Assembly: GCA_921293015.1 (NCBI GenBank)
Contig: OV121085.1
Location: forward strand, 20,845,911 to 20,909,910
Source: Phorcus lineatus
Lineage: Eukaryota; Mollusca; Gastropoda; Trochida; Trochidae
DNA length: 64,000 bases
Direction: 5' to 3'
Shown here: in pieces, positions 8,505 to 52,514 of the stretch
Layout of the letters: every line of letters starts with the position of its first letter
Numbering within the stretch: position 1 is the stretch's first letter
Notes under the pieces: generated by a model
Told to the model about the DNA's origin: nothing
What the model saw: the letters and a program-made list of their open reading frames with translations, nothing else
The model's database searches: none
Translations under genes and position numbers: made by a program

Positions 8505-10560
8505 TCATGTAATATTTTTGTAATATTCAAAGCCTGTTCCCTTCATGATTCTCGTCTCGAGATGTAACTGTTTTTCTGCTGATATCTCACAGCGATGTAA
8601 TTTCCTCGGACTGGGACTGAGCTGATAGTTGAACGATTCACACCGAGGATGTTTGGCACAGAAGATAGCACACTCCACGGCACTGTGCACCTGCGGAGGG
8701 AGACAAAATTGTCATTAAAAGACAAAGAGCAAATATAAAAAAAACACCAACTTTTATAATCCCGTCTATGTAAAAAATTATTTAACATTTTCTGATATCC
8801 AAATATGACATCTCGTCATGAAATATTAAGAGCTACCGCCAAGTTTAACTTAAGTAATTAAGAGAACAACTGGTAAGAGAGCCACATGTGGATACCTCAT
8901 GAAATATCAGTCACTTCTTTAAGTGCTTTTGATTTATGAGAAAGGGCAATTCGAAAACATGTATTTTTTTCATCTTAGACCAATACCTATCCATCAGAAA
9001 TAACATTGTATCAATAAAGCGAGATTATTCGTCGACGTTTTATCTTGAATTAACAAGCATTAGTTAGTTTCCTATAAAACGATCGTTTGAATTTTTCGAA
9101 CCAGGTACAACACGATACCGGCCGTTCAGCTCACCTGTCAGATACAGATGTATTCTGTTTTAGAAAAGTAACATACCCAAAGAAATAATTATAAAAACAA
9201 AATGTGATATTTCACTTTATCTTACACTATGGTACTTTTTTAAAACTTTGCAAAGTAATGTGATTGATATAGAGACTATCATTTAACTGTGTTGCAGAGG
9301 ACATGCTATATTTGACTTTTCTTTAGGGTTTGCTTCTCCATGTGAGACATGTTTCTTCAAGAATGTTAAAAAGAAAAAAATATTTTGTCATTGTTTAATG
9401 TTTAGTGGGACAATGACTGAAGAAATTGGTACCATATCTTCTCTTGCGATAAGCTGTTTGTGCTTCGATGGGTTGGTTTTTGAAAAAATCCGTAAAGTTG
9501 ATACCCAAAGCACTGCAGGATCACATCTGGCATAAATGGGGGTTTAAAATTCAAAAACCTCAAATATCTTCATTATCTTATAAAATTGTTATTATGCATT
9601 AATTATGAAAAAGAATCAAGATATATCATAATGTTAACCAATGTTGTCTACATTCACCAAAAATTTATCGAAATGTGTTCAAATAATATTTTTAGCAGAA
9701 ATAAGAAATTCTCATCTTTTATTTTGACTCCTTGCCTGTTTTGGTTAATGTCAAATTTTGTCCTGGTATGAAACATATTTGTCACCTATATATACACCGT
9801 GAAACACACTTTTGTTCAGAAGCTGTACATTATGTATGTTAGCATGCTAATTCAGTTGGATGTTTAAAGGGATGGTAGAACGGTTTTTAGGTAAACGTAG
9901 TGAACCAAAACATGTATAAATGTTACTTAGTGCAAGACATTCAAAAGAATCAGTTCTCGAGCAAAACATAATAAGCTCGGTTAAACTACGCGAATCCATC
10001 TCTAACTCAAATGATTAAAGGTGTTCACACTAAAATGACTGGTATCAATCTTCGCTTTATACTTGACACCTTCTTTGAAGACTAAGGATAATCGGTTTGA
10101 GTAACTAGGTGTCACTCTGAAGATAATGCAAATGGCACACAAATAAATTTATTGTGGGAATTTTGAATGAAATTAATTTACCGGAAAACGTACTACTTCC
10201 CCTTTCAGATAAATATAGTTAATACATAAAATTTCTCTCCAGTATCAAGGAAACATTTTGTTTAATTAACAATTAAAGTCATCAATAAAGTGTGAATACG
10301 ATCAGGACTATACAAATCTATCATAATGTGACTGATACTTTGGGACTGTACCAAACAATTTAGCTACGTTACTAAAGCCGAAGAAAATACAGTGACACAA
10401 ACGTACCTAATACTTGCAGTGTAAGAAGTGCGAGATGACCAAGAACTCCAGCCGGCTCCTGTATGTATCATACTTTCCAGGGTTAGGGCTTGAGCAGACT
10501 GGATAACTGGAGCATCTCTATACCATACATCGATTAGCTTCGTTGGAACATTGTGCGTGC
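8505..10560 (-). pseudogene. Copy A of the secreted PAN-like gene family (broken)
   Basis: Remnants of all three exons are present in order. Exon 3 (8505-8690) is intact, with acceptor CTCCGCAG before it. It encodes the CAKHPRCESFNY core, the LHRCE segment and the terminal YYKNIT, then a stop. Exon 2 is reduced to 35 bases (9100-9134): the acceptor TGACAG and residues ELNGRYRVVPG remain, but the rest, including both cysteine codons and the donor, is replaced by unrelated sequence. Exon 1 (about 10407-10560) matches the 5' leader and signal-peptide exon of copies B and C. It lacks about 60 bases including the start codon and ends in TAG just before a GTACGT donor. Two independent lesions indicate that this copy cannot make the family protein. 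Exon 3 probably looks intact because decay is recent. Confidence 0.75.
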
Positions 10561-10608
10561 TGTAGCTGGGGGGCTTGACAATACTCCACTTCTCTTGTCA
10601 TTTAGAGG

Positions 10609-10703
10609 TTATATTATATTATATTATATTATATTATATTATATTATATTATATTATATTATATTATATTATATTATATTATATTATATTATATTATATT
10701 ATA
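10609..10703. repeat. (ATATT)n pentanucleotide microsatellite, about 19 units
   Basis: An almost perfect ATATT array. It starts immediately upstream (on the minus strand) of the leader of pseudogene copy A, where copies B and C carry a TTATA motif. Confidence 0.95.
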
Positions 10704-11987: not shown

Positions 11988-12024
<37 letters not shown>

Positions 12025-12924: not shown

Positions 12925-13194
12925 TGAAGCAAAGTGCTCCTCTTATTCGTTCTGCTAACGCCTCTAAGGAAGTTCCTTGTGTGGTTCATTTAGAACCGGA
13001 TAGCAGGTGACAGACTCATTACTCGTGCTGAAATAACCTCTTGGTTTTTACTTAACAATGTTGTTTGTTCCTTAAAAAGCCTTTCAGTTAAAACACATAA
13101 TCAATCAGAAAACAGAAAAACAGATTTTGTAATCAATACATTTATCTAGGGTAAATACGGTAGCTTAAGCCGGTTACCGCGCATGCATGTTTTG

Positions 13195-13224: not shown

Positions 13225-13315
13225 GTAGAATGTTATAAGGTGGGGTTGAAGTGAAAGTTTCGTCACTCGTGATCTACGCGTTACTCAGGCGAGTAGCTTT
13301 TGCCTTGTTTTTTTA

Positions 13316-14638
13316 ATGTCAGCGAAGTTGTTGCCGTTTGGCAACGTGAAAGCCGCTGGGCTTTACGTAGTAGACGACTGGGAGTGTTGTAGGCCACTGG
13401 GCGTTAGTAGTAGGCCACTGGGCGTTAGTAGTAGGCCACTGGGCGTTAGTTATAGGCCACTGGGCATTAGTAGTAGGCCACTGGGCGTTAGTAGTAGGCC
13501 ACTGGGCGTTAGTAGTAGGCCACTGGGCGTTAGTTATAGGCCACTGGGCATTAGTAGTAGGCCACTGGGCGTTAGTTATAGGCCACTGGGCGTTAGTTAT
13601 AGGCCACTGGGCGTTAGTTATAGGCCACTGGGCGTTAGTAGTAGGCTACTGGGCGTTAGTTATAGGCCACTGGGCGTTAGTTATAGGCCACTGGGCGTTA
13701 GTTATAGGCCACTGTGCATTAGAAGTAGGCCACTGGGCGTTAGTAGTAGGCCACTGGGTGTTAGTAGTAGGCCACTGGGCGTTAGTTATAGGCCACTGGG
13801 CATTAGTAGTAGGCCACTGGGCGTTAGTAGTAGACCACTGGGCGTTAGTTATAGGCCACTGGGCGTTAGTTATAGGCCACTGGGCGTTAGTTATAGGCCA
13901 CTGGGCGTTAGTTATAGGCCACTGGGCGTTAGTTATAGGCCACTGGGCGTTAGTAGTAGGCCACTGGGCGTTAGTTATAGGCCACTGGGCGTTAGTTATA
14001 GGCCACTGGGCGTTAGTTATAGGCCACTGGGCATTAGTAATAGGCCATTGGGCGTTAGTTATAGGCCACTGGGCGTTAGTTATAGGCCACTGGGCATTAG
14101 TAGTAGGCCACTGGGCGTTAGTTATAGGCCACTGGGCGTTAGTTGTAGGCCACTGGGCGTTAGTTATAGGCCACTGGGCGTTAGTAGTAGGCCACTGGGC
14201 GTTAGTTGTAGGCCACTGGGCGTTAGTTATAGGCCACTGGGCGTTAGTTATAGGCCACTGGGCATTAGTAGTAGGCCACTGGGCGTTAGTTATAGGCCAC
14301 TGGGCGTTAGTTATAGGCCACTGGGCATTAGTAATAGGCCATTGGGCGTTAGTTATAGGCCACTGGGCGTTAGTTATAGGCCACTGGGCATTAGTAGTAG
14401 GCCACTGGGCGTTAGTTATAGGCCACTGGGCATTAGTAGTAGGCCACTGGGCGTTAGTTATAGGCCACTGGGCGTTAGTTATAGGCCACTGGGCGTTAGT
14501 TATAGGCCACTGGGCGTTAGTAGTAGGCCACTGGGCTTGTGCTACATTTATGTGATATGTGCAGTTGTGCTAACAACGATCAGCAGGTTATCAGACTACC
14601 TCTCGCCGCTGGATATTCACCCAGGGAGCAGACAGTGA
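13316..14638 (+). CDS. Open frame across the 21-bp minisatellite (coding status doubtful)
   Basis: A 440-codon frame opens with ATG after a T-rich stretch. It has about 25 non-repetitive residues, then 54 to 55 heptapeptides of the form RPLG-V/I-S-S/Y, then about 30 non-repetitive residues before the stop. The repeat length is a multiple of three, so any frame without a stop in the unit stays open across the array. A second frame (ALVIGHW repeats, 13758-14555) is also open, which weakens the case for selection on the protein. No signal peptide or known domain is visible. The amino-acid variation follows unit-to-unit base variants (SS/SY/SC/SN, V/I). A repetitive protein is possible, but a plain non-coding minisatellite is the simpler reading. 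Confidence 0.25.
   Translation: MSAKLLPFGNVKAAGLYVVDDWECCRPLGVSSRPLGVSSRPLGVSYRPLGISSRPLGVSSRPLGVSSRPLGVSYRPLGISSRPLGVSYRPLGVSYRPLGVSYRPLGVSSRLLGVSYRPLGVSYRPLGVSYRPLCIRSRPLGVSSRPLGVSSRPLGVSYRPLGISSRPLGVSSRPLGVSYRPLGVSYRPLGVSYRPLGVSYRPLGVSYRPLGVSSRPLGVSYRPLGVSYRPLGVSYRPLGISNRPLGVSYRPLGVSYRPLGISSRPLGVSYRPLGVSCRPLGVSYRPLGVSSRPLGVSCRPLGVSYRPLGVSYRPLGISSRPLGVSYRPLGVSYRPLGISNRPLGVSYRPLGVSYRPLGISSRPLGVSYRPLGISSRPLGVSYRPLGVSYRPLGVSYRPLGVSSRPLGLCYIYVICAVVLTTISRLSDYLSPLDIHPGSRQ
13391..14536. repeat. 21-bp minisatellite, about 54.5 units
   Basis: The consensus unit is AGGCCACTGGGCGTTAGT followed by AGT or TAT. Variants include GGGCATTAG, a rare GGCCATTGGG, GGCTACTGGG and TGTGCATTAGAAG. Units carry higher-order structure: a four-unit pattern (SS, SS, SY, ISS in translation) occurs at units 1-4, 5-8 and 17-20. 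A seven-unit block marked by GTAATAGGCCATTGGG occurs twice, exactly 294 bases (14 units) apart, near 14037 and 14331. Confidence 0.95.
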
Positions 14639-19556: not shown

Positions 19557-19560
19557 TCGG

Positions 19561-20135
19561 GTTCTCGGGAAGCACGCAAACAACCCACCGCTGGCATAGC
19601 TCTCAAGGTCTGGGGAAGCACAAAAACAACCCACCAGTGGCATAGCTCTCACGGTCTCGGGAAGCACGCAAACCACCCACCGCTGGCATAGCTCTCAAGG
19701 TCTGGGGAAGCACAAAAACAACCCACCAGTGGCATAACTCTCAAGGTCTCGGGAAGCACGCAAACCACCCACCGCTGACATAGCTCTCAAGGTCTCGGGA
19801 AGCATGCAAATCACCCACCGCTGGCATAGCTCTCAGGGTCTCGGGAAGCACGCAAATCACCCACCGCTGGCATAGTTCAAAGTCTCGGGAAGCACGCAAA
19901 ATACCCACTGCTGCAAAGCTTTCAGGGTCTCGGGAAGCACGCAAACCAGCCACCGCTGGCATATCTTTCATGGTATCGGGAAGCACGCAAACCACCCACC
20001 GCTGGCATAACTTTCAGGGTCTCGGGAAGCACGCAAACCAGCCACCGCTGGCATAACTCTCATGGTGTCGGGAAGCACGCAAACCACCCACCGCTGGCAT
20101 AGCTCTAATTGTCTCGGGAAGCACGCAAACCACCC
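19561..20135. repeat. 46-bp tandem array, about 12.5 units
   Basis: The unit reads CTCGGGAAGCACGCAAACC, then ACCCACCGCTGGCATAGCT, then CTCAAGGT. The first four units alternate between a CTCGGG...CCGCTGG form and a CTGGGG...CCAGTGG form, which suggests an early 92-bp step. One unit near 19870 is about two bases short. The unit is not a multiple of three, so the short minus-strand frames across it are by-products. Confidence 0.95.
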
Positions 20136-20530: not shown

Positions 20531-23152
20531 ATGTCTGCTCTTATTAATGCAAATGGATAATAGTTTCGGGTTTTGAACTACCCGTTTGTAAACCAGGTTT
20601 GATATCACGTTACATAGAATTGGTTATCGCAGATTAACCTAACGGGGCATGTCCGTGTGACTGTTAGATATTATTGATTGATTTTGAAATGTTTTCCTGC
20701 AATCGATGACATTTGCATTTCCTTTTCTTCGTGAGATGTGTTATGTCCTTTAGAAAACGGACTACAATGCCTTTATGTATGACTTTACACTGAATACACT
20801 GTACCAGGCTCGAATTTGGGTAGTGACTGGTAACTAGGATTTAAAAGATAAATTTTTTCTTTCATAAATGTAACTATATCTGATTTTGTGAGACATGTAT
20901 TCGTGCCTTTTAAAAATTTATTCAATATCTTCGAGTAGCTTTAACACCAAGTCTTGTTATAACAATTTTGAATTGGTTGTTCAAGCAAACCTATATTTGT
21001 TATACCATCAATATGACCTTCCGAACAGAAGCCCACGGCTAAAGTTGATCATCAAGCAGATAACCAGAACGATGGATTGCTCTAACAAGGCTCTACATTA
21101 GCTCAATTAGGAGACACGTGTAGTTCAAGGTCTTATTGGTTGCTTTTCATTTACCCGCACGGGAGTGTTCCATTAATGATATATTAGTTTCATGTTTCAA
21201 TCCACAGTGCTAATGTGTGATATTCATGAATAGAAACAAGCCCGTTTTAATTCGGTATTCATTAGGGGACATCTTTGTGCATTCATTTTTCTTGGTCTCA
21301 TTTACAAATGGTTTATTCATTTTGATGGTGGTGGTTTTGTGGGTTTAATTGTTATGATGAATGAAATGAACATCAACTCGAAATTTTTAGGCGTTTTATA
21401 CATTTACTTGGAACTCAAACTTACATCACTCTAAAGTATGCTCAGGATTTGTATTCATTATCAAGTGTCAGTAGGGTTGCGTCAAAGTGCAGTTGATCTT
21501 ACGGAAACAGTTACATTTTGGAAACAAGTTTACTGAAATTTTTGTATCTTTATTTTCAGTAATCATTTTGAAAGTTTATTCAAAACCACTCAAACTGATA
21601 TATTTGAAATGTCTTTTCAGGTGCTGTTAATAGTTTTGCTTGAATTAGATAATATTCTGTTTCAAAAGAAATTTATATTTTGAATTTTAAATTGCAAGTG
21701 GATAATTTGATCTCTTTTCCGATGATTTAAATTTATAGTTTACATTTTACACACTATTCAAAATCTTATAGCAATTATCCATCAAAGAATGTTATTCTTT
21801 ATCTATGCAAGTGATGTATGTGACACTATGTATACAATACATCATGGCTGCCATTAAGGGGGAAAACGAACAATTACTACTACTACTTACTTTTTTATAA
21901 TTACTTTTATAGTCATTTTACAAAAAGAGCTATTCGTTCATTTCTGTCAATGACTTCCATGGTCATATTCAGAAATGATAACAATTCCGTGATTGGCATA
22001 ATCAATGTAATTCTCTTCCCTCAGAGAAAAGTCATAAAACCCTATGCCAACAAACCTGAAATATGTGAAAATGATGACGCAAAATATGAACATCGAATTT
22101 GTAGAACAAAATTGTCAAATACTAAAATTAGGTTATATCAAATAGCCATCGTCCAATATTCAGTCATAAATCACACCTAAACGCTGTTGTCACCAAATCC
22201 TCAAATATTAACAAATCACGCCTCTGCTGCTTGCGTTTTCATGTGCATTAGGTGTGAATTAACAAGAATAAATATATCATTTAGTATGCATAAGTGATGA
22301 CAAGAAGGAAATCAATGTGTTATTCATCCTCTCCAACTATAATGTGCTGTCTGTTCCTTCCGAAGAAATTCGTATTGCAAATCGTGATCTTCGTCTTTGT
22401 CAACACGATTTATACTGAACATTTGTGCGGTTTAAAATCAGTCACAAATTTGTAGTTACTTCAACAACCATATGGTCTAAGACGTTGTTGACATCAATCA
22501 GAAACTGTCGATAAGTAGATATCCAGAAAATTGATTTCGTTTAATGTTCTGATTTTGATTCATTTCGTGTGAATATGGTACAGTGAGAAGATAAGTCCAG
22601 TAGTGTGAGTGTCTATTCCTTAACTTTAATAGGCTATGTTGTTTAAAATCTTCCGTTGTCACATTTTGTTTGTTGTTGGTGATATTATGAGATGATGAAA
22701 TCCCACACGAATAGATTCCAATTAACACTATAGTAAACTGTAGCTTGTAATCTCACAGAGTCACTATCCTTCGGAGTTCTTTTATCTGTTAGTGTTACTA
22801 GTCGTTAGACAGCTAGTAAGATATGAAATTCTGGATCATACGAATGTAATAATTCATACTATATGGATTGTTTCTCATTGTCCGGTCTCATTACAAATGA
22901 CTAAATTTCTTTGTTGTACTGCAAAATGAAGAAATTCTAGATCCTAAGGATGTCAAAGTTTACACTGTAAGGGCACAAAGCTTCCATTCCTCAGACTCAT
23001 ATCTTCTGTTCTGTGACAAAATATGAATTTGATCTCTCTGGTTTCGGTATCACAGTGTGCTCAGTTCAAAATAATGATTCCTCGATTCCTAATATAAAGT
23101 TGTTTTTCCAAGGAAATATTGATCTATTTTCAGAAAAATATTCATCTCGTCA
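20531..23152. other. Gene-free; 3' flank of copy B within the duplication
   Basis: Two stretches, 20640-20810 and 22100-23150, are recognisably paralogous to 45005-45170 and 47770-48826. The flank immediately downstream of the gene is diverged well beyond the exons. No open frame is conserved between the two units here. Confidence 0.5.
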
Positions 23153-26100
23153 TCATGTTATATTTTTGTAATATTCAAAGCCTGTTCCCTTCTTGATTCT
23201 GGTCTCAAGATGTAACTGTTTTTCTGAGGCCATCTCACAGCGATGTAGTTTCCTTGGACTGGGACTGAGCTGATAGTTGAAAGATCCACACCGAGGATGT
23301 TTAGCACAGAAGATAGCACACTCCACGACACTGTGCACCTGTGGAGGGAGACCAAAGAATAATTTATGGTATCAAATCAATTATTTTAATCAGTTCTAGA
23401 GTTTGATAAATCTTCAAACACTGTTCATAGCAACGTTTATCTTTCGGTAAATGAACTTACTTAATATGAACGTTAACCTTTTTAACGATCACGATAAACC
23501 GCTAGTCATACATACATACATACATACATACATACATACAAACAATATACAAAACTATTGGATCATAGCAGTAGCTGTCTGATTCATATCATATTCACTA
23601 TATTTTCGTAATAATTCACAGGACACATTCTATATTTACAGTATATGTATATCCCATAGTCCATTCATTTATACTTATCATATTGAAAACACATGTCAAA
23701 TATTTTTACTTAGATGTTGAGATAATTCAATAACAGACTCGTGGCAAAATAAAATTGATATTGTTTGGTGATAAAATATTATAACAGCTGTAAGGCTTAC
23801 ATTTGTTATTGAATTTTATACACTATAATATACTGTTTAATGTTTTAGAGCCTTTGGCTCTGTAGCTCATCAGGCTATATATAGTGTATTCTATAAATGG
23901 CCACAGGATCACCATATGAGCTGACGCATGAACATCCATTCATTGTAATCGTCATCAGCTTAGGACTCTGTACACAAAGTTTCCGCTTTCTAGGTCTCTT
24001 GCTTCTGGAGAAGACGATGAAAATAGGTTATTAGGGCGTGGCCCCTATGACCCTTAGTGGGAGTCACTGAGTCACCAAATCTATAAATTTGAATCTCCAC
24101 TAGCTAAGGAGTCTGTTCAAAATGTTTCTAGGCCTTTTGCTTTTGGAGAAAAAGAAGAAAATAGGTTTTTAAGGTCCCTGTGGCCCTTTTTACGGACTAC
24201 CAAATCTATTAATTAGAATTCCAATCAGCTAAATAGTCTGTACACACAGCTTCGGCTTTCCAAGATCTTATGTTTTTAAAGAAGCTGAAAATAGGTTTTG
24301 AGGGTGTGGCCCCTGTGAACCTTATTAGGCTTAGTTAAGAAATATATAAATAAGAAACCTCATATTAGTCTAGGGATTTATACACATAGATTTCCTGAGT
24401 AAATGGTTCTTGAGAAGATGAAATAGTTCAAAGTTTACAGACGGATGGATGGCAGACATGCCAAGCCATAAGTCCATGGTGTCTTTCAGACCAATATGAG
24501 CTAAAAAAATTGTATATTCCAATCACATGTACACATACAACTTATCAAACTACTACCAGCCCAAAGAATTTTTTTTCTGGTGAAGAAAAGTTCCCAAAAA
24601 TTCATTTGACATATTGACGCATGTTAATTCCTATTCATTGTCTGTTATTCGATCAAAAATCTTACTTAATCTGTTTTATTCTCACTATACTGAACCGAGA
24701 GCATGAACATTTTAATTCTAAGCAACAGCCAATATTGTATGATAAAGTAACTACATTGAGGTGTTAAATATTTTAATTCAACAACGTATTCTTCTACATT
24801 TCAATCAGTAAACAACCGTTGGTGGGGAAAAACATGGGGAAATTTGCATAATCAAGGAGCGAGGTTATTGCTGACTTTGTGAGGATTAATTTATCAATGT
24901 CATCAATGGCGGGCCCACAATTATCTAACGCATTGATTTTGATTTTTTGCTGGTGCTAAGATAGTTTACTGTAGGTACCCTTGATGGGCGTTGCATATTT
25001 TAGTACAGAGATCTCTCCGAAAATTGAACTCGGGGTAAAGTTCATATGTCAGAATTCTTTATAACTGGTGTCAATAAATGCTTACAGGTACAACGGGAAT
25101 CTTTTTCCGACAAGTGTCTCTGTTCCAGGTTCTGCACAGACTGCCCACCTGACCAGGTACAACACGATACCTGGCGTTCAGCTCACCTGTCAAGTACAAA
25201 TATTCACTTTTATAGAATGAAAACTGACCCAAGCTCAATTTTACAAAATTAAGATAAGTTGGAAGATAAGTTTGAAGGGATTAGTATTTGCAACTCACTT
25301 TTAATCTTTTCAATTTTTACACAAAATAAAAGCATAACTAATTCAATGTTCTGAAAAACTGCTATGATGTAATTACTGCTGCTGAAAAAAATCTGTTTCA
25401 CATTGAGGTTTTCTTATTTCTACAATTAGATATTATTTGAACACATTTTCGAACACATTTCGGTCAAAATGGACATCATGAGTTAATACTTTTATAAATC
25501 TTTTGTTTGTTTAAGTTTTATAAGATAATCAAGAAATTGAGCTTTTACCCTTTAGACGCCATATACCCCTGTGCTGTAGTAGTACAACGAGTATCGTCTT
25601 TAATATGTGATAGGAAAATGGCTGTTCTTCATCTCTTAAAAATCTTAACTTTGGATGAATGATGCTTGAACAAGTCGATGGCAAGTGAACACCATTTGCC
25701 CTATTTGAAAGTCACTCGATTTGACAGTAATGAAACAACCCTACTTAAAACATATGTGTGAACCTCAACCATCATAATCAATAAACTGGACATTTTCATT
25801 CTGTTTTTCAGACTATTACTTTTGGAAACCTTTTAATGTTATTTGATGTATATTTGAAATGACAGTACACAGTCAGTCGGCTGTGTTTCGAATGTCCATA
25901 TCATAATTGACCCTTTACTAGGCTTTGCTATTTCATTTGAGACATTTATGAAAGTTTCTCTTATAAAGATATAAGTTTTATATAGCTTTACAATTGCACA
26001 TATAAAAATGGTATCGTGATAATTGCAGTAATACAATTTATATATGGGGATAAATGCATCTTCATTAATATTCCCTCGTATAGAAAGAAACTAATCATAA

Positions 26101-26844
26101 TTCCTTCAAACATTGGTATTTCATGTAAGGTGCTGAAAAAAATCATTGATTTATATACATTTTAATCAAGAGATTTCTTATTTCATAAAAAGTGAACATT
26201 AATGTAGCAACTTGTCTCTACCAACTACAACATATTTTCTTGTTCATCTGTTTGAAAACTTCCTTTATGACAAAAATATTGTTTTGTATAATAGTTATTC
26301 AACAAAATAAAACAAATGAAAAAATTCATAATAATCAAATTTTCGCGCGTTTTAAAAGAAAACCTACTTTGACAAAAAGTATGAAATATTTCAAATAAAA
26401 AAATAGGGATGTTGCTATGTTGAGACAAAATTGTAATATGTATCGTTGAACGAACAATGAAAAAGGAGACTAAAACAATTTAAAACAAAGCAATTGGTTG
26501 TTTTAATGACACTTTTAGTTCACAAACGGAGAATATTTTGTCTTTAGTATCATGAAAATAGATTTCACTTTTGAAACACACTTAATACATATTGTGTGAA
26601 TTTTACATATTCTTTCAAGTTTAATAATACATTTGATATATTCAGAATGTTCAAAACGCGAATGGAGCATGGGTAGAATTTAAATAAACAAAAATGTACC
26701 TAAATACATTTTCAGAATATACAAAATATCGAATTCAACGAAAAACATTTTGTAGATTTGTATTAACATAAACGTACCTGAAACTTGCGATAAAAGGAGT
26801 CCAAGCAGACCAAGAACTACGACCAGGATGTTGTCTCTAGCCAT
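23153..26844 (-). CDS. Secreted small PAN/apple-like protein, copy B
   Basis: Three exons join to 117 codons. Exon 1, 26778-26844, ends in GTTTCAG before donor GTACGT (phase 1). Exon 2, 25086-25186, has acceptor TTGACAG and donor GTAAGC. Exon 3, 23153-23338, has acceptor CTCCACAG and ends in TGA. Exon 1 encodes a signal peptide: MARD, then a hydrophobic run ILVVVLGLLGLLLSQVSG. The mature part begins ELNARYRVV and has six cysteines. Exon 3 has C-x3-C-x5-C followed by SFNY and a later LHRCE, the spacing typical of PAN/apple domains, which bind proteins or carbohydrates outside cells. The chain ends KNIT, an N-x-T sequon in the last three residues. Between copies B and C exon 3 differs at 13 of 186 bases (6 amino-acid changing). 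This suggests an expressed, constrained secreted protein. Its ligand is unknown, and a divergent cysteine-rich peptide family is the main alternative. Confidence 0.8.
23507..23540. repeat. (CATA)n microsatellite
   Basis: About eight perfect CATA units within intron 2 of copy B. Confidence 0.9.
23845..24505. mobile_element. Dispersed element with internal sub-repeats (copy 2), in intron 2 of copy B
   Basis: Four diverged sub-repeats start near 23968, 24112, 24236 and 24365 with GTCTGTACACA-like motifs. They are followed by a TTCTAGG/CTTGCTTCTGGAG-like segment, GAAAATAGGTT, GTGGCCC and CACCAAATCTATAA-like segments. The left end has TAGCTCATCAGGC, the inverse of GCCTGATGAGCTA at the end of copy 1 (6125-6870). 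The right end has ACGGATGGATGG and then ATGAGCTAAAA. The corresponding introns of copies A and C lack it. Confidence 0.55.
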
Positions 26845-27056
26845 TTCCAACCTCCAGTGTGCTGATACAACCCTGTACACTTCCTAACAGCTCTCCTGTA
26901 TCCAACATTACAGCGTGAAGCCTGTGAGGAGACTGAACAACTGGAGCAGTCTACCAGAGCATCTGTCTCCCACACATCGATTTGCTCGGTCTCGGATCCA
27001 TACGAGCAGTGAGTTATAGTTGAGGGGCTTGATAACACTCTGCTGTCTCGGAGCAG

Positions 27057-27062
27057 TTATAA
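27057..27062 (-). promoter_or_regulatory. Putative TATA box of copy B
   Basis: On the minus strand GAGATGTCTTATAAC lies about 210 bases before the start codon. The same context, GAGATGTCTTATAC, is kept at 52733-52738 before copy C, although neighbouring bases have diverged. Conservation and position support a core promoter with a leader of roughly 180 bases; the transcription start is not determined. Confidence 0.45.
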
Positions 27063-27069
27063 GACATCT

Positions 27070-39464: not shown

Positions 39465-41172
39465 ATCAATTTATTCCTTAAACAACTGGCTTTATACAAA
39501 TATTTCACTAGGTTACAGAGTTCTTTAACATTTTTAACACTTAATAATTAGATAAGCTTAAATACGGAAGGACGTCGATAATACTAAGGTTTAATATAAA
39601 CTTGTCTAAAATCAATATAACCTGATACGCCTAATTATTCAAGCCACAAACCTCCGCTTCCTCATATAAACCTTCATAACAACCTCGAAGAACGGAGTTG
39701 TTTATGCTTAACAGCTTGCGCCAGTATTTTATCATATTAAACTGTCTCAGATACAAAAGGGGGAATCGATCCAATTCTGGGTAAACCATAGCATTACAAG
39801 TACATTTCTTTACTCCGAATAATCTTTTACAAAAATCTAAATGTAGCTTCTCAATGTTTACTCCTTTATGGTAACCACACACCTCTGACGCGTATCCTAA
39901 TATACTGCCGACATAGCAATCAAAAACGGACAACAAAGATTCAGGATTTAGAGAAAGTGACCGTATATTATTTGAAAGTGGCTTCTTGCCTTGATCTGCA
40001 AGCTGTAATTGAGCCTTTGTAAACTTGTTATTATAATTAAAGACCACTCCCAAATATGTAAAACTGCAAACAACCTCAATTGCACAATTATTATAACATC
40101 AATTTTCCGATAATCTACAATTACCACCTTTTCTGAAACAAATTACTTTAGTCTTAGCAATATTAACCTCTAGTCCCCGATTAGAATAACTAGACAACAA
40201 ATCTAAAAGCGACTGCAATCCTTCGACTGATTCTGAGATTAAAACTAAGTCATCTGCATACATCAACAAAAACATACTGAGAGCTTCATACTTATAGGGC
40301 TTACAATTATCTTCCCAAACCGAGACCTCAACATCACTGAGATAAAATGAAAATAAAATTGGAGATAGAACTTCACCTTGAAGTAAGCCAATACTATTCT
40401 TGAAATATTCACTATCGAAACCTCCAACACTTACACATGATCTAACATTCAAATACAACGAATAAATAACTGACATCAACTTCCCATTTATACCAAGATT
40501 CGACATCTTAAACCACAACTTCGACCGATCTATAGCATCAAATTCGCGCTTAAAGTCCACAAAGGCACCATACATACGTTTATTGTTAATAAGACCGAGG
40601 CTAACCATGGAGTGGAGCGAAAATATGACATCATCAGTACTAAGCTTCGGGCAAAAACCAAACTGAAAATCCGGTATGCTATCATAAGCCGAGGACCAGT
40701 CCAAAAGTCTTTGATTAAAGATTCTCGTTAAGAGCTTTCCATATCAACTAATGAGACTTATACCACGATAATTTCCTGGAATCCTGCTATCTCCTTTCTT
40801 GAAAAGTAGTGTTATGACCGCAGATGACCAACTTGAAGGGGAAAAACTGTTCATAAAATTAAGTTTAAAATTCTGTGTATAACAGGCGTTAAATATGCAT
40901 CAAATTCAATGAAATATTCATTTATCATACAGTCAGGACCATGCGATATATTACGCTTTAAACAACGAATAGATTGCTTAATCTCAGCTGTGGTAATCTC
41001 ATTATCCGGTTCGGGTACAACAATGTCCTCAAACAAACCAGCTTTATTTTGTTGGGTCAGAGTCTCCAGCAAGCTCTTTAGAATAGGCATGAAAATCAGC
41101 CAATGGCGCATCAATATTTGTCTTTTTACGTCTGTTAAATTTAGCTTAATTATCCACAGAAGGGTTTCCATA
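39465..41172 (-). mobile_element. Truncated non-LTR retrotransposon (LINE 1), RT with YADD
   Basis: Minus-strand reading gives, in order, a pre-RT linker (EITTAEIKQSIRCLKRN, then HGPDCMINEYF) and RT motif PGNYRGISL near 40770. A KLSTDDVIFSLHSMV segment, VDFKREFDAIDR and a LLQGEVLSPILFSFYL segment follow. The catalytic LLMYADDLVLIS has YADD at 40249-40260, and a C-terminal NYNNKFTKAQLQLADQGKK part runs to 39631. The frame is interrupted by a shift near 40860, an in-frame stop just upstream of 40704 and another near 40098. The endonuclease region is missing, so the copy is 5' truncated and dead. The 3' end is placed near 39465 by an AATAAATTGATTG motif. The clade (Jockey/I/CR1-like) cannot be decided by eye. 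Confidence 0.8.
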
Positions 41173-41184
41173 TCAATCTTTTTT

Positions 41185-43135
41185 TCAATCCTTATTTCAT
41201 ACTGAAAAGGCCACAGGCCTATAGTACATAAATAGATGATAATTGTATACATACATAAATTCATACTTAAGCGATATAACATTACTTCCAAACAACATTG
41301 CATAATGGATGAACATGACAAGATTTTGTAACATCATCTGATTGGTGCGTCTAACGAGAGTCGAGAATTTTCTAATACATGGATGGGTATAGTAATATCT
41401 TTTAATATATTTGTCTCGCAGTGAATGATAAGATGGAAATGATATTCATCTTCGATTTCATTTAAATTACAAAGCTTACATATTCTCTCATCTTTTTAAA
41501 CAATTTTATATAGGCCACTTTCAATCAACACATGTGTTAAGTATACTTCTTTACGTAAATCAGTTTTGAACTTAGAATAATAAATACATTTACTCGACAA
41601 AGACATTTTTTCGCACCATGTTTGCAGATACATATCTTTGAGCCTTGTAGTTATTGACTGTATGAATGAAGTGCGGAACTCTACACATTGTTCATTCCAA
41701 ACGTTTCCAAAACCTATTGAGTATAAGAAATCTTAACGTTTGTTGTTAATATCTCCAAGGGGACTTAATGTTTTTAGGATACCAATCAGTGCTTTTTGCG
41801 CTTGGAGCGAGGCATATTTGACATGTTTGCTCCATGACAATACATTTGTGAAATAAAAGCCCAGATATTTGTAATGACTAACACAATAAATGTATATACC
41901 CTTATAATAATTAAAGAGTACTATTTTTGTTTTATTTCTATTTACTGTCAATTGCCATGTATCACAGTAATGTTCATATAATTGATTTTGGAGACCACTG
42001 ACGGTGCTCGAAAACATGACAATGTCATCCGCGAATAAGAGCAGAAAAATTTGGACTATTTCAGGATGTTGTTGAATCCCGCTCGAACAGTTAGTTTGAG
42101 TGGCAAGCTCATTTATGAAAAATGAAAACAAAAATTACTTAAAATACACGTACCCTTGTCTTACACCAAGTTGTAATCGAACGTTTTCGAGAATTTGTGA
42201 TTGTTTTTAACACACCCCTTTACATTCTCATACATATTTGACAAAAGTTTACCCATTTTGTTACTGAAACCATGACATTGAAATAAGGACCAAAGTTTGT
42301 TTCTCTGTACAGAATCGAATACAGAAACGGCATAGAACTTTCCTCCTTTTGTATTTAAATACCTTTGGACAATACTTTGTAAAATAAACATATTGTCAGT
42401 GGTATATCCGTGTCTAAATCAGCTTGTGTTTCATTGATCTTATCCATTGTATCACCCGAATTCACAAGTCTTCTATTAATAACATAGGTGAAAATCTTAT
42501 TAAAAATACTTAATAATGTTATTCCTCTGAAATTATTTGGGTCGATAACGTCTCCATATTTATGAACTGGAATAATTATACCAATCGTCCATGAATGTGG
42601 GAAGGTACCATATTCTAGTATGGTATGGTACAATGAGATATGCTGATTTTTTAAAAAGAATTCTGATATCATGCCATCTATCCCTGGTGATTTGTTTGTT
42701 TTAAGATTTCTGATACTGTCTTGTTTCTCTTCTCTAGTTATTGGCGATTCTAGTATCGCTTCTGTAAGCTCGGAATTATTTTGGTAAATATTTGTCTGCT
42801 CTGGATCTCCGTGATTATTAATGACATTACTCTCATCCCCTTTATCAGAGCTAGAAAAGATTTGTCTGAAATGTAAAAACCAATCATCTATATTGATGTT
42901 GTTTTGCCCCATCTCTGCTATTTAACGTTTCAGACCAGATTTTTTTCGAGTTAGTTATGCTATTTTCTATGGATGTTTGCTTTTCTTTGAACTACGCGAG
43001 TCGTTTTTTCGACGGAGGGAATTATACTGGTTCCTTGCGATGCAGTACTGGTCAAATGATCTTTTATATTTACGAAACTTATTGAAAAGTCTGCTTCTTT
43101 CAGATTTCATTTTTCGCAATCCGAGTTATACCAAC
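41185..43135 (-). mobile_element. Truncated non-LTR retrotransposon (LINE 2), RT with FADD
   Basis: A second, different LINE begins with KFRKYKRSFDQYC near 43080. It continues through ITREEKQDSIRNLKTNKSPG and IDGMISEFFLKN to the RT motif DPNNFRGITLLS and an RR-like segment. A VFDSVQRNKLW segment and the catalytic LLLFADDIVMFS (FADD at 42024-42035) follow, then NRNKTKIVLFNY and KYLGFYF. Further downstream is a C-terminal cysteine segment, ICKLCNLNEIEDEYHF, near 41475. The 3' end has GGCCTGTGGCC followed by ATGAAATAAGG (about 41190-41219) and an A/GATT-rich tail. Several frameshifts and stops, for example near 42390 and 42145, make it a relic. Its tail directly abuts the truncated 5' end of LINE 1. 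Confidence 0.8.
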
Positions 43136-43343
43136 TTTTAGAATATCTTTTGGATTAATTTACCTTTTTTGTCATACATGAAGCTGTAGTACAGATTGCT
43201 TCTGTCATATAGGATATACTATATCAACCGTTGGGAATCGCCTTCGAGTGGCGGGTTGTATAGGGAACGTAGACCTCTCAATCGTGTGAAATTAACATTA
43301 TAACATTACGGCACTTTATAAGGTGGTGTAGAGCGAGGGTGGG

Positions 43344-43894
43344 TTGGAATTTGACATCATGTGTCGGATCGATTGGTTTGATGAGTGTAGGATGCTATTG
43401 CATATTGTGGATGGTCGAATTCGTGTTTGGCGACAAGCTAACACCCGTTTCGCACCAAGACATGTCCAACCAACCTATCAGTGTGGTGGTGGCTCTGTGA
43501 TGATTTTGGGTTATGTCTCCTACGGTTGTAAACTCAACCTTGTGACAGTTCCAGGTACACTCAATGCTCAGAAATATCGAGATAACATCCTTCTCCCTGT
43601 GGTTATTCCACATTTCGACAAGCATCCACTTCGTACAAGACCAGTTTACATGTATGACAATGCTAGACCCCACAGAGCCAGAGTGGTAACACAAATTCTA
43701 CAGCAGGTAGCCATAACAATGCAACCGTGGCATGCTTGCGTGTACATAGGAGATACCCTCCTGTTTAAACTGTGGCAGAGTTTAATGCAGCACTGCATCA
43801 GGAGTGGCAGCAGATATATCAGAGACTGATACGTACCATGTCGAGGAGGGTCAATCAAGTCATCAATGCAAAAGGGTCATACACTCGCTCTTGA
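43344..43894 (+). mobile_element. Tc1-like transposase relic
   Basis: The frame from about 43370 shows WFDECRMLL (position of the first catalytic Asp), then DGRIRVWRQ, GGGSVMILG and YDNARPHRARVV (second catalytic Asp), all hallmarks of Tc1/mariner DDE transposases. The expected third catalytic segment (SPDLNPIEHVWD type) is lost in a short deletion or frameshift near 43740. In another frame the normal C-terminus follows (EFNAALHQEWQQI, then MSRRVNQVINAKGSYTRS), ending at 43894. The N-terminal DNA-binding half is missing and no terminal inverted repeats were found. It cannot encode an active enzyme. Confidence 0.8.
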
Positions 43895-44348: not shown

Positions 44349-45576
44349 TCAAACACCATTGAAGGCGATTACGCACTTGGATATTGGTGGTCTTGGTCGA
44401 TTAATCTCTTCACGAGAACGATTCCAGTAAATCAAGTAATTTTTTCCTAACAAGAGGAATATGTTGTAAAGTCTTCGTGGCTTTGACAACACGTTGACGT
44501 AAGTGATTGACTCGGATGTAGAGACACATCTGAAGTTCTTGTCTTAAACATCTCGTTATCAGTCACTACCCTCCAATCAAGCTTCATAGAATACATTCAT
44601 TCGTAACCTTCCAAAAATTTCTTTAATTCATCCTTTAGACATCTCAAATTATGTTTTGAATTGAATTGAATGTCAGTTTTTTTAAAGTCAACAATATTAA
44701 AATATATATTTTGAAGCTGGCAGTTCGTTTCAAGCAAACTACTGATTGAGTTAAAATCTACGAAAAATAGAAACAAACTTTTAAAACTGAAGTTTGATAA
44801 TTGTTTCATTGTACTTTTTGTGTAAAACATGTTTTTCTGAATATGCATGCATATTTCTTAAGGCACTTGTACGTTCGTATTCAATGATACATTCTGTCCA
44901 ATTTTAAAATAAATCCATCACAAAAACTAATCACCTTTATCAAATTGTGAAGGGAATAAGAAAAATTTCTGCTTGTAAACCGTTTCAGATATGACAATAC
45001 ATGTGTCACGTAGCTTAACCGAACGTGTCATGGCCATGTCCTTTTCTTGTTTTGATTTACAACAATATTGTGTTATGGGTAACAATTACACTTCCTCCAT
45101 CATGATATCCATTTTTTACTCCAGAAAGCGGGCTACAATGCCTTCAAGTATGCTTTTACATTGAATCAATCAAACAATCAATCAATCATTTATTTCAGTA
45201 GAAAAGCCTTTGGTCCACGTACAAATTCAACTTAAAGATGAATTGCATAGGGTCAATCAAGGCATCTTTAACATAATTTGAGATGTCTAAAGGATGAATT
45301 AAAGAAATTTTTGGAAGGTTACGAATGAATATATTCTATGAAGCTTGATTGGAGGGTAGTGACTGATAACGAGATGTTAAAGACAAGAATTTCAGATGTG
45401 TCTCTACATCCGAGTCAATCACTTACGTCAACGTGTTGTCAAAACCACGAAGACTTTACAACATATTCCTCTTGTTAGGAAAAAATTACTTGATTTACTG
45501 GAATTGTTCTCGTGAAGAGGTTAATCGACCAAGACGACCAATATCCAAGTGCGTAATCGCCTTCAATGGTGTTTGA
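44349..45576. repeat. Near-perfect inverted repeat, 306-bp arms
   Basis: Left arm 44349-44654 and right arm 45271-45576 are reverse complements without gaps; I count about six mismatches. They enclose a 616-bp spacer. A transcript through both arms would form a long double-stranded stem. No transposase is inside; the spacer contains a LINE 3' tail (45162-45222) and a stretch paralogous to 20640-20810 of unit B. Confidence 0.9.
45162..45222 (-). mobile_element. LINE 3'-end fragment with ATTG repeats
   Basis: The reverse complement reads CCAAAGGC, then TTCTACTGAAATAAATGATTG and further ATTG units. This form resembles the 3' ends of LINE 2 (41190-41219) and the fragment at 56862-56914. Confidence 0.5.
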
Positions 45577-47760
45577 AACAAAGAATCTTGAACTGAAATT
45601 CTGGTCCAGTTGTTATAACTTGTTCACAGACCATCCCTAATCAACTGTGCTGTTCATGTTTAGTGACAATGCTAAAATGTACGAAAGAAATGATTTATTG
45701 CGAATGAATTATATGACTTGCTGTACTTCCAAAACAAATGGAATTAAAAAAATATGAAAAGAAAAAACATGAACCTTAGAAACTTTTGGAAAGTTTGGTT
45801 CAGTGATTAATCACAAATTTATCTGCTATTGGGAGATGACCAAAACGGTCGACAGATTCACTGACACATTGTGAAGTCAAGAAGTGCAATTCAAGCACAA
45901 AAGATCTGATATAGTGATGGTTCGGGGGAATCAAGCAGAAAACTAGTTCATCAACAACTTCTTCAGACTGCACATGCCTCCGATTATTGACCATATTCCA
46001 GCATGATTACGCTAATTCACAAGCAGCATGCGTCATGTTCCGGATCCATTACCAAAGCAATTTGAACCTCAGAATCTTTCAGTGGCCTTTCAAAACCTTA
46101 AATATCGAATAAGCGTGATCGATGTGTAGGTGAGTGGTGTAACGTTATTATATATTATTCGGTAAACGTTCAAAACATTTATCAAGTCGTACTAAGGTTC
46201 TTGCTGTTGGTTCCCCATTTTGCGTTTGTGTTGTAGTCAACTTTACGCACCAAAATGCATGTAAGTTTATCTGTTGTTGGGTTTAATGTATAATAGACAA
46301 ATTGAATTCAGAAAAATTATAAAAGCAACTTTTTTCAACATATTGCTGGTTTTAGGTTATGTAAAATTTACTTAAACCTATGGGACACTCATGCCCGAGT
46401 ACTTTGTTTAACGTTTTTAGAAATACCTTTCGCAAGTGGATGAGTGCAAATTAATTAGGTTTGTTCTATGTTTTCAAAACCTTTGTATTTTGTTTGCCAA
46501 TACGTATACGTGTACATGTTTTATCATAATCATAATCACAATATTTCAATTCAAACATTTCAAACAACAATAAATAAACATGAAGAGTGTGTGTCATTAA
46601 ACGGCACGTGTTCTGATCGTCTCAGAATTTACCCGACCTTTGACTCGGACGATGTAGATTGTTCTGTTTGGTTACTTGAACCTTAGTTGCGTCACTGTCC
46701 TTAACTTATTAGGATTAAAATATCTTCCAGTCCCCGTTAGCACTACTCGATAAGAAATTACACAATAGACAATACTTGACATATACTACTCGACAAAAGT
46801 TTAGAAATGAGTTTTCATGTTTCTAAAACTGAACTATACTTGTTTAGAAGCTGTATTAATACCCATTGTCAAGCATTTCAGAATTATGGGTCTTGAAAAA
46901 CTAGGCATCATGAATCACTACTGGCAAATGCTAAGAAGAAAAAGAAGTGTCTAACGGGGAAAGTGTTACATTACTGGGGACAAATGTAATGTTTTAGGTT
47001 TTCTTTCATCATGGTAACTGCATTCATTCTCAAACATTCAACTTTTGTTCAGTGGTATATTTGACTACAACAACATACCCTATGCCGCTTTTAACTAAAC
47101 GACTCAATCTCTTTGATTTATGTTCAATTTCTTTTACAAAAAATCAAGTATTCTTGTGTTAGGGGATTTCAAACATTGATTAAAAATAGGTAGCTTACGG
47201 AAATGAATTCATTTGCTTAGATTTTCATGACGGATTAAGTTAAGATATAACAAATGTGAATGTGATGTAACAAATTAGATAACAGTAAGATTGAATATGA
47301 GCAGATATCCATTCACATTTAGATGAAACGATTTTTATACAAAAAGGAAAATAAAGGATTTTCGTACATAGAAATGTAATCTTTTACTTATAATTTATTA
47401 CCCATCTTCTCCAGTTATAATAAGTGTGAACCGGATAAAAGCGTTTATCTGAGGTATAACTCCTCTCGTTTTGATGTGAAGAAAAACTAAATATTTGACA
47501 AAGGAAATAATAAAAATGTTATATTATAGTTTTATTTTTAATTTAAAAGGCATGAGTTGTAAGGGGAAAATAACAAACTAATATACAAATAATCTGGATT
47601 GAAAAATTACTGTAATAAAAACGGGTGTACATGTATACAAAAAACTTGGGGGAGATCTAGCTGTTGATAACTATAAAGATCCGAGATATGTGATATTGAT
47701 TCTTGTCTAATACTTTTAAAGTCAAAAATATTATCACAAAAAATTAATATCAAATTTGTG
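45577..47760. other. Intergenic, no gene seen
   Basis: AT-rich, short unsupported frames only; nothing repetitive noted. Paralogy with unit B resumes near 47760. Confidence 0.5.
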
Positions 47761-48826
47761 AAACAAAATTGTCAAATACTTCAAGTACCCATAAGAATAA
47801 TCTTCTAATATTCAGCAATAAATTACACGACAACGCAAATGTCACCCAAGTGTTCAATTTTAAACACATCTTACTTCTGCTGCTAAATCAAAGTTGTGTA
47901 TTTACAATACAAAGATTTGATAAAGAAGAATATTTGCAAAGAGGAACTACGTCACTCTTTCATTCTTCCTCTCCAACTATTATGTTCTGTCACTTTCGTG
48001 ATAATAATATCAATGGCGCTCTTACTCAGAACGAACTATATTGTATATGTGTACGGTTTGAAAAGAGTCACATACTTGCAGTTAGTGAACAACTCTATGG
48101 TTTTAGACGTCACGTTTTGGACATCAGTCAGTAAAGATCGAAACAGTAGACATCTAGAAAAAAAAATCATCTGGTTTTATGGAATGTGTTTTGTACCTTT
48201 TGTGTGAATATAGTACTGTAAGAAGATAAGTTCAGTAGTGCGAGAGTCTCTATTCTTTAATAGGCTATGCTGTATAAAATCTTCCCTTGTCACATTTTAT
48301 CAGTCGTTGTTGATGTTATGAGATGATGATATCCCACGTGATTACGATGTTCCAGTTACACTGTAATTTCTAATCTTCCATAGTCACCATTCATCGGAGC
48401 TTATTATCTGGTAGTGTCACATGTGGTTTGTCAGCTGGTAAGATAGGAAATTCTTTATCATACTAATGTAACAGTTTATAGTATATGGAAACAATAGAAA
48501 TATTTCACGGTCCTTTTCGAAAGGTTCTGATGATCCGGTTTAATCACAATTGTCTCAATAGATCGGTCATTTGTCTGTTGTACTGCAAGATAGAGAACTT
48601 CTTGATCCTGAGGAAGTGACAGTTTACATTGTAATGACTCACAGCTTCCTATCTCTCAGATTAAATTTTGGCCTTGTGAAAAAAAATCAATTGGGCCCCT
48701 CTAATTTCAATATCCAATATCACAGTGTGCTCAATTTAAAATAATGACTCCTCGAGACATCATATGTAGTTGTAATTTCAAAGAAATATCGATCTATTAT
48801 CACAAAAATATTCATACGGTCATCAT

Positions 48827-51800
48827 TCATGTTACATTTTTGTAATATTCAAAGCCTGTTCCCTTCTTGATTCTGGTCTCAAGATGTAACTGTTTTTCTG
48901 TTGCCATCTCACAGCGATGTAATTTCCTCGGACTAGGACTGAGCTGATAGTTGAACGATTCACATCGATGATGTTTGGCACAGAAGACAGCACACTCCAC
49001 GGCACTGTGCACCTGTGGAGGGCGACACAAAATATGATTAAAAGACCAAGAACAAATATGAAATAAGGTTATGTCTATTGACTTAAATCAAATCTTTTAA
49101 ATCAGTTCCGTAAGTTAAAATCTCATTTTAAAAAAGTTGATAGAAATGTTTTTGTTTCAATAACTCCGAACTTACTGATATGGATTTCAATATTCAACGA
49201 GCTATTTATACCACTATCTAATATATGAAAAGAAAACAATATTGATTAAAATAGTAGGATCTGTCATATTTGTATCATGTTAACAACAGTTCACGTAATA
49301 ATTCACAGGGACATTCTATATTTATACTTATACTCGATTCATTTATTGCTATCATAATGTTGACTCAGATCACATCTTTTTACTAACATGTATACGTTGA
49401 GATAAATTAAGGACACACATGAAAAAACAGTTTTTATGTTATCTGGGGATTAAATTTTAGGAGGGCCAAAGGCTTACATTTTCTTACAAATTATTTGTAC
49501 CTTATCAAATACTGTCAGTAAATTTCATGTTGAAGGTGATTTGAAAATTGTCTTTAAAGTGCCACAAAATATCTTTATCTAATTTCATTGAGCTTCGATA
49601 CGTGCCATATATACCTGTCATTATCTAAATTCAAATCAACTTCATCATCGCCAAATATAAGACATTTATTTGATTTCATTGATTACCATGAACATCCTTA
49701 ATATAGTATTCTACCATGAAAGTGCTGGATACTCGATTCTGATTGGCAGTTTTGTCCGACTCAGAGGGTATCAATTCACGATTGAAGTTGCTCTGTTTAC
49801 CCGAAATCAGTTTACAATGTATTAATACATACATTGACTTCCGACTATCCGATTGGTAACTTCAGAGTCGATATTCCGCTTGCAAGTAGGATTAATCTCT
49901 TTCCAAAAGTAATTGATCGTATTTGTTATCGTGTGTTTACACGGAGAGAGAAAACTGTTTTAATTTTATGTCGTATTTTGTACAAAATAAGAAGTTTGAG
50001 TGAAAAAATATCGTAAACTAAGCTTTCCGCTACTGGGCATGCAGCAGCATTCCTTCGAATACGGCAACAAAACAATGACGTCATTTCGCGAGCGCTTCTG
50101 ACGTCATAAACCCTATTACGACGTCATAGTGGTCTACTGTTAGAGTCATACATTTGCGTCATGAAGGGGTGGCGCGGCCTTTGTTTGCTATCAAAACAAG
50201 AAAAACAGACTTTTTAAGCGATTCTATATTTACATTTGTACCTCATACTAGTACGAAACCATTTCGTGGACACACAGTATTAGGTTTACCTTTCTTAACT
50301 GTTAAATTTAAGTTCAATACTAAGACACAAAATCCCCGATGCTGACGAGTTCATGTTTGTCTCCAGAAGTCGCACCATTTTACACTGTGCATTTCGCTAT
50401 GAAAAAGAGTTCAGCATGAAAATCGTCATGGTAGAATGGAGATAAACCTAGTGTGTTTGAAAATCAGAGACATGTTATACTGGATTGATAGCGAGTAAAT
50501 TTTAAATTGAAACCGAACGCGCAAACACACTAGGTTTATCTCCTAATTGAAAAGCTATTTTGCGTTCCAATCACATGAACACAAATGGCCTATCCAACAC
50601 TTCTAACGAGTACTTTTTTCTTTCTTTTTGTTTCCAAAAATTTTTTTTTTCAAATTTCTTATTATTCTGTTTAAAGCATTAGAAATGATTGAAGATACAC
50701 TTTTTGAGGATTTGAGGATTGATTGGTCATTATATCAATGTAATCAATAATAATCAACAGTTATCTAATGCAATGATTTCGATTTTCTCCTCGTGCTAAG
50801 ATGCTTATGCTGTACGTAGGTACCATTGATGGAAGTTTACTATCTTAGTACAGCGATATCTCCGAAAATTGAATTTAGGGTAAAGTTTATATTTTAGAGT
50901 TTTTTATAACTGGTGTCAATAAATGCTTACAGGTACAACAGGAATCTTTTTCCGACAGTTGTCTCTGTTCCAGGTTCTGCACAGACTGCCCACCTGACCA
51001 GGTACAACATGATACCGGGCGTTCAGCTCACCTTAAAGGTTGAAGTATGGACTTTTATATAATAAAACAACATTAAAAATTTCTTATTTCCGCAATAAGA
51101 TATTCCAACATCTTCGAACAGTTTTTAGTCAAAATAGGCAACATCTCCTAAAAATTTGAAATGTTGTACAAATAATAATTTATTTCTGCAAAGCAATTGG
51201 AGGTTTGTATAAATAAGTCAATCTTAAGTGAACATCATTTGACATGATATTTGCATTCTCTTTGAAAGTACTGAACAAACAACTTTGTTGAGCAACTAGT
51301 TGCATGTGTGAATCCCAGCCGTCATTGTTTAAAAAGGGGAATGTTTGCACTTTGTTTTTCAGAATATTACTTTTGAAAGCTGATTACTTGATGTATAGAT
51401 GATAAGACAGTATACAGTCAGTCGGCTGTGTTTGCCCATGATATATTGAAGCTTTTTTTTTTGTGTGTGTGTGATGTAAGTTTTATAAATCTATACATTT
51501 CGGTAAAATTATTCTGGTGATTTATACAGTGCTAGAAAGTATCCTGATTCTGTTAATAAGAGAGAACGTCGATCCACATATAAAAATGGTATCGTGATAA
51601 CTGCGGTAGTACAATAAATATATGGTACAAAAATACATTTTCACTAATACTCTCCCGTATAGAAAGAAACTAAGCAAAATACCATCGAACATTTGTATTT
51701 CACGTAAGGCACTGGAACTTACTGTTAATTCAGATATTCAGGAGATTTCTTATTTCATAAAAACGTGAACATCCATGTAGAAACTTGTCTCAATCCACGA

Positions 51801-52514
51801 CAACATATTTTCTTCACCCGTTTGAAAGCTTAATTTACGACTAAAATATTATTTTTTGTATTTTATCACTTTAAAAAAATAGACGAATAAAAACAATTCA
51901 TATCATTTTAAAAGTTTTGTTAAGACATACAATCCAAAATAAAAAAATCCACCTCTCTCGACTAGTTCGAAAATCAAATGACATCTAAAGAAGACTCAAA
52001 TACTTTATTTGACTTAAATTTCGGTACTTGATTTTGTCAAATCATACATTTTCGCCTTAAACTTGGTTGCAGTGAATTAAATAGAGATATATTTAATCGT
52101 TTTGTCTTAGACAGTCCTTCCTGTTTTTGTTTTTCACTACTGTTTTAAATGTCCTAGATATGATCACGTTCGCCATGGCTGTTATTATTTTGTTCTAGGA
52201 TTTTCACGAAACGTGCTTACTATAAAATCATACGTGTTTATGTCTTATGTGAACATCTCCATGTATATAGGGGCGGCGTTAACATAAGCCTTCTTTACCT
52301 ATCCTTTTCTCTCGTTGAATAAACTATGTTTAAACCATAATTTGTGAATTTGGTCAAGCTAAGATAGCCATTCAAGTAAACTAAAAACAGAATTTACAAA
52401 ACAATTAACGAAAAACATATGTAGAATTTATATCAACACGAACTTACCTGAAACTTGCGCTAAAAGGAGTCCAAGCAGACCAAGAACTACGACCAGGATG
52501 TTTTCTCTATCCAT
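48827..52514 (-). CDS. Secreted small PAN/apple-like protein, copy C
   Basis: Three exons give 117 codons, with the same splice phases as copy B. Exon 1 is 52448-52514 (donor GTAAGT), exon 2 is 50931-51031 (acceptor TTTAAG, donor GTAAGC), and exon 3 is 48827-49012 (acceptor CTCCACAG). The signal peptide is MDREN followed by ILVVVLGLLGLLLAQVSG. Mature protein: ELNARYHVVPGQVG, two cysteines in exon 2 (LCRTWNRDNC), then C-x3-C-x5-C with ESFNY, LHRCEM and a C-terminal YYKNVT. All six cysteines and the terminal N-x-T sequon match copy B. Substitutions in exon 3 are V/A, I/V, P/H, G/E, S/T and I/V. Both flanks and introns are paralogous to copy B but more diverged, and intron 2 has its own insertion (about 49.4-50.55 kb). 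Role inferred: extracellular binding protein; ligand unknown. Confidence 0.8.
49708..50437. mobile_element. Possible MITE in intron 2 of copy C
   Basis: ATTCTACCATGA (49708-49719) and its exact reverse complement TCATGGTAGAAT (50426-50437) bound a less AT-rich stretch. That stretch is absent from the corresponding introns of copies A and B. Arms are only 12 bp and no target-site duplication was seen, so boundaries are tentative. Confidence 0.35.
50076..50126. promoter_or_regulatory. Cluster of TGACGTCA (CRE-type) sites
   Basis: Perfect TGACGTCA occurs at 50076-50083 and 50099-50106, with CGACGTCA at 50119-50126, all within 51 bases. TGACGTCA is the binding palindrome of CREB/ATF bZIP factors. 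The sites lie inside the putative MITE, so they could simply belong to the element. Confidence 0.45.
50438..50543. repeat. Perfect 22-bp inverted repeat (hairpin)
   Basis: The left arm at 50438-50459 begins GGAGATAAACC and ends GTGTGTTTG. The right arm at 50522-50543 is its exact reverse complement, separated by 62 bases. It abuts the right end of the putative MITE, so the two may be parts of one nested insertion. Confidence 0.75.

Follow-up and report, generated by a model that had tools for sequence, protein, structure and literature searches.

The question raised by this locus is whether a set of related sequences on one strand of a Phorcus lineatus contig encodes a family of small secreted PAN-domain proteins, and whether these genes are still maintained. 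In the window (the whole stretch of 64,000 nucleotides analyzed here), an initial annotation had described three copies on the same strand with the same exon order, and all three, named A, B and C below, are indeed found on the minus strand. The span from 8505 to 52514 is bordered by the end of the last exon of copy A and by the ATG of copy C. Gene models of copies B and C were rebuilt from the sequence. They extend over 23153-26844 and 48827-52514, respectively, with three exons each:

52448..52514, minus strand: coding part of copy C exon 1, for the leader peptide; ends in phase 1
50931..51031, minus strand: copy C exon 2; N-terminal stretch of the mature product, including two cysteines; AAG acceptor
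48827..49012, minus strand: copy C exon 3; encodes the four-cysteine PAN_1 core and ends with the stop codon
26778..26844, minus strand: coding part of copy B exon 1, for the leader peptide
25086..25186, minus strand: copy B exon 2
23153..23338, minus strand: copy B exon 3; encodes the four-cysteine PAN_1 core and ends with the stop codon

Once joined, the exons give 117 amino acids for each of the two copies. Each product has six cysteines, four of which form the core C63-x3-C67-x5-C73-x16-C90, the other two being C40 and C48. The four introns (1591 and 1747 nt in B, 1416 and 1918 nt in C) all start with GT and end with AG, and the splice phases, 1 then 0, are the same in both genes. The two intact copies with six cysteines and a C-x3-C-x5-C...C core that had been reported are thus recovered as open frames, as is the compact three-exon organization with 117 residues, including a hydrophobic leader. 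The identity of splice phases, which had been claimed for three copies, holds for B and C; copy A is too incomplete for this comparison. An extension of the protein at its N-terminal side, beyond the ATG, is ruled out by an in-frame stop upstream in both genes.

The family had been called PAN-like, and profile searches bear this out. The gathering cut-off of Pfam PAN_1 (PF00024), 21.4 bits, is passed by the joined products (32.8 bits, E 6.4e-8, for B and 31.8 bits for C) and also by each last exon alone (31.9, 31.9, and 32.3 bits). The match begins only at profile position 14 or 18, and C40 and C48 are outside the matched stretch. The PAN_4 profile (PF14295), which had also been named, has to be abandoned, since the joined products score 19 and 18.2 bits for a cut-off of 27 bits. 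Side matches to the Pfam families Herpes_U5 and RNA_pol_A_bac were far under their cut-offs and were taken as chance; Rfam gave no match at gathering score. When PDB chains were searched with phmmer, nine of the 12 matches up to E 10 were chains with the apple domains of factor XI or plasma kallikrein. The best match is weak (E 0.0063 for the whole chain, with an i-Evalue of 2.7 for its best single stretch), and the other three are unrelated proteins with E-values of 1.4 or worse. The PAN fold is made up of a helix packed on a multi-stranded sheet. An AlphaFold2 model of the last exon only, calculated with three close rows, is of low confidence (mean pLDDT 48.4, pTM 0.28); its helix (residues 4-13) and strands (47-50 and 53-56) are compatible with a PAN domain and prove nothing. 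According to passages of PMC9249922, the PAN core contains four to six conserved cysteines, and the number of core cysteines in B and C is within this range. With B and C, the known PAN domain family gains a compact new member.

Are these genes maintained? Copies B and C can be aligned over approximately 5.5 kb (22080-27546 with 47737-53234). Identity is 94.1% in the coding part (333/354 columns, a count in which four gap columns beside the stop codon of exon 3 could equally well be placed after the stop) vs. 64.8% in the other aligned columns (3022/4665). By exon, it amounts to 95.5, 95.0, and 93.0% for exons 1, 2, and 3, respectively. Intron 1 is 62.6% identical; intron 2 is 82.4% identical over its first 120 nt and 53.8% over the remainder. 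The 3' flank is 73.2%, then 72.7% identical, that is, it differs by about 27%. Along a sliding profile, identity drops steeply at the 3' edge of exon 1 and at the 5' edges of exons 2 and 3, declines slowly past exons 2 and 3, and does not drop upstream of the ATG. Ks is 0.137 and Ka 0.042, giving a Ka/Ks ratio of 0.305 (0.201 for the mature part), with 10 synonymous changes for 80.0 sites and 11 non-synonymous changes for 271.0 sites (Fisher P 0.012). Because of this ratio and of the identity of coding vs. other columns, the exons can be considered as real and constrained. Copies B and C are kept under purifying selection. Within the part encoding the leader peptide, three non-synonymous and no synonymous changes are counted, so that no constraint is visible there by this measure.

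These data bear on the idea that all the copies are decayed or untranscribed leftovers. Copy A is broken, the acceptor of exon 2 ends with AAG in C where A and B have CAG, and AATAAA is absent up to 900 nt past the stop codons of B and C, the first ATTAAA being 523 nt (B) and 283 nt (C) away. However, B and C are open, their splice sites match, and their Ka/Ks ratio is 0.305. Moreover, neutral decay seldom keeps such a frame open: when the B coding sequence was evolved neutrally to 27% divergence by substitutions only, 172 of 5000 runs were devoid of internal stops. Hence, the leftover idea is most improbable.

The conserved region is not limited to the coding exons. Over 145 aligned bases upstream of the ATG, B and C are 93.8% identical vs. 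74.9% further up. This stretch is as conserved as the coding exons, yet in both copies a stop interrupts the main frame within it. It contains upstream ORFs:

26845..26990, minus strand: copy B, conserved stretch before the ATG, presumed 5' leader, with an in-frame stop; 93.8% identical to C over 145 aligned bases
52515..52659, minus strand: copy C, counterpart of this conserved stretch
26837..26908, minus strand: copy B, upstream ORF of 23 codons that runs over the main start codon in a different frame
52507..52578, minus strand: copy C, 23-codon upstream ORF at the same position and in the same frame as in B

In both genes, the 23-codon ORF opens 64 nt upstream of the main ATG and closes just beyond it, and a shorter ORF of eight codons is present further upstream. 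Between B and C, the 23-codon ORF differs at 6 of 72 nt, which affect five codons, two of them with a change of residue. These differences are too few for translation of this ORF to be claimed. If it is part of the mRNA, the ORF would presumably make translation of the main frame less efficient.

Another possibility is that the three exons belong to a larger multi-domain gene with missed exons, so that the product would not be a single-domain protein. Well-known PAN proteins are multi-domain. In a snail FREP, PAN/Apple is joined with immunoglobulin and fibrinogen domains (passages of PMC7588048), and a patch of intron 1 is conserved (78% over 25997-26330). Against a larger gene stand the main-frame stop that both copies have a short way upstream of the ATG and the stop codon that ends all three last exons. 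Furthermore, outside the leader and the three exons, no 60-column window of the B-C alignment exceeds 90% identity. A larger gene is therefore quite unlikely.

Copy A, in contrast with the two kept copies, has decayed. What is left of it is as follows:

8505..8690, minus strand: copy A exon 3, open, PAN_1-positive
9100..9134, minus strand: what remains of copy A exon 2, its first 35 nt out of 101
10395..10549, minus strand: copy A remnants of exon 1 and leader (matches 10395-10447 and 10464-10549), without ATG

The similarity to exon 1 is limited to 10395-10447, which includes some intron. The start codon has been lost, as have roughly two thirds of exon 2, the remaining part of which has two differences with B and two with C. 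The last exon shows 14 site differences between A and B, 12 between A and C, and 13 between B and C; despite the broken gene, amino-acid changes in the last exon of A are as few as in the other copies.

This observation raises the possibility that exchange of sequence between the copies, beyond selection alone, maintains part of the exonic similarity. Such exchange would be compatible with the explanation preferred here. It would account for the few amino-acid changes in the last exon of a broken copy, for the 93.8% identity before the ATG, and for synonymous sites having diverged less (10/80) than the 3' flank (27%; Fisher P 0.003). However, exchanged tracts are expected to extend into introns, and at three exon boundaries the identity drops abruptly. 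Part of the data would also be covered if the leader is constrained and A was lost recently, and the numbers are small. Exchange can thus be regarded as possible, though rather unlikely. A constrained leader, partial exchange, or recent decay of A would separately account for part of these features: the good preservation of the last exon of A, the likeness of the leaders, and the low synonymous difference.

The family had also been described as locally expanding. Within the window, this description is not borne out. The duplication that separates B and C is not fresh, because of the difference of about 27% in the 3' flank and of the Ks of 0.137, and one of the three copies is broken. A profile of the three last exons, compared with 2097 six-frame ORFs of at least 20 amino acids, revealed no fourth copy in the window (next E 1.2), and tblastn found no further copy within the window. 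Relatives of the 117-residue product were also looked for in prokaryote contigs (45 pattern stretches) and viral contigs (one pattern stretch); none was confirmed by tblastn, and these collections say little for an animal gene.

The DNA has a low GC content (0.31-0.37) and contains several repeats. A 21-bp minisatellite (13250-14638, 54.8 copies, 92% matches) is open over 462, 393, and 307 codons in frames on the two strands. Since the 21-bp unit holds a whole number of codons, such frames are expected from the repeat itself and do not point to a gene. At 19563-20135, a unit of 46 bp is repeated in tandem 12.5 times. On the minus strand, 39631-42921 contains broken LINE pieces, two of which match reverse transcriptase PF00078 (70.1 and 30.7 bits); the LINE proteins resemble some from bivalves, which, like the low GC content, gives no more than a hint of a molluscan source. 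A transposase-like remnant is located at 43332-43829 (DDE_3, 17.1 bits, below the cut-off of 28.6). At 44349-45576, two inverted arms of 307 bp, 98% complementary and 614 bp apart, are perhaps a young foldback or inverted-repeat element. Upstream of B and C, the segments 28329-30475 and 59100-60957 are related in inverted orientation (69-76% identity for the main pieces) and may derive from a dispersed repeat. Finally, a 22-bp tandem array at 54476-54885 is built around the palindrome CCTAATTAGG, hence it is also rich in inverted repeats.

How does the B/C product compare with known PAN proteins? Leech anti-platelet protein (LAPP) is a single small domain, and leeches are grouped with the lophotrochozoan animals; the chains of factor XI and plasma kallikrein have four apple domains and a serine protease. 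The apple domains of the latter two are the best PDB matches, and the first apple of factor XI shares C-x3-C-x5-C. They differ from the B/C product, which is one domain, and the match is weak, as described above. In the N-terminal PAN of HGF, the four core cysteines also start from C-x3-C (positions 70, 74, 84, and 96), but HGF is multi-domain (passages of PMC9249922) and the spacing here is C-x3-C-x5-C-x16-C. As far as passages of PMC7588048 go, mollusc PAN/Apple proteins include the snail FREP, four Crassostrea gigas genes, and some Lottia FReDs. The snail FREP differs from B/C by its additional immunoglobulin and fibrinogen parts (same source), and the C. gigas and Lottia PAN genes could be closer relatives of B/C. 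Among the open-access papers listed, going by titles and abstract openings, none dealt with a stand-alone mollusc PAN protein. Like the putatively secreted B/C product, LAPP and the leech salivary PAN proteins come from lophotrochozoans. They are secreted PAN-domain proteins, and LAPP binds collagens (passages of PMC7191736); it also blocks platelet adhesion. The likeness of B/C to LAPP is one of predicted layout, and none of the 12 PDB matches is named LAPP. Judging from its predicted organization, the best reading of the B/C product is a small, putatively secreted PAN-domain binder laid out like LAPP.

The leader, ILVVVLGLLGLLL, has a hydrophobic core and precedes V-S-G, which by rule resembles a cleavage site. 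From this core, it is probably a signal peptide, which would send the protein into the secretory pathway. The mature part of 94 residues is basic, with calculated isoelectric points of 9.69 and 9.44 (range 9.4-9.7), the two products having 17 and 16 lysines plus arginines and 7 and 8 aspartates plus glutamates. It has one N-glycosylation-type site close to its C-terminus. The layout read from the sequence would be a signal peptide and one PAN domain only, similar to that of LAPP. The mature part would fold as a single PAN/apple module. If the usual PAN pattern applies, the helix cysteines C63 and C67 would pair with C90 and C73, respectively, with an extra N-terminal pair, C40-C48. In passages of PMC7191736, PAN/apple modules are described as binding proteins, heparin, and collagen, the apple domains of factor XI binding heparin among others; in PMC3269628, the PAN module appears in a legend on lectin-type proteins. 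By analogy with such modules, the B/C protein would be a monovalent binder working extracellularly, with an anionic glycan or a matrix protein as its probable ligand, other protein ligands being conceivable. The description as an effector or recognition family, given in the initial annotation, is not supported by these analyses.

Altogether, the locus probably corresponds to a small gene family duplicated in place, encoding a secreted basic single-PAN binder, of which two copies have been kept and one has decayed. A more elaborate proposal would be that of lineage-specific, stand-alone secreted basic PAN proteins blocking glycans or proteins in the animal's own fluids or mucus, with translation restrained by the upstream ORFs and with exon-limited exchange keeping the copies alike, even the broken one; as a whole, we consider it very unlikely. 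Otherwise, this is an ordinary case of tandem gene duplication with one broken copy. As a compact gene pair for a PAN-only, putatively secreted protein, B and C would nevertheless make a handy minimal system for questions on binding by a lone PAN domain.
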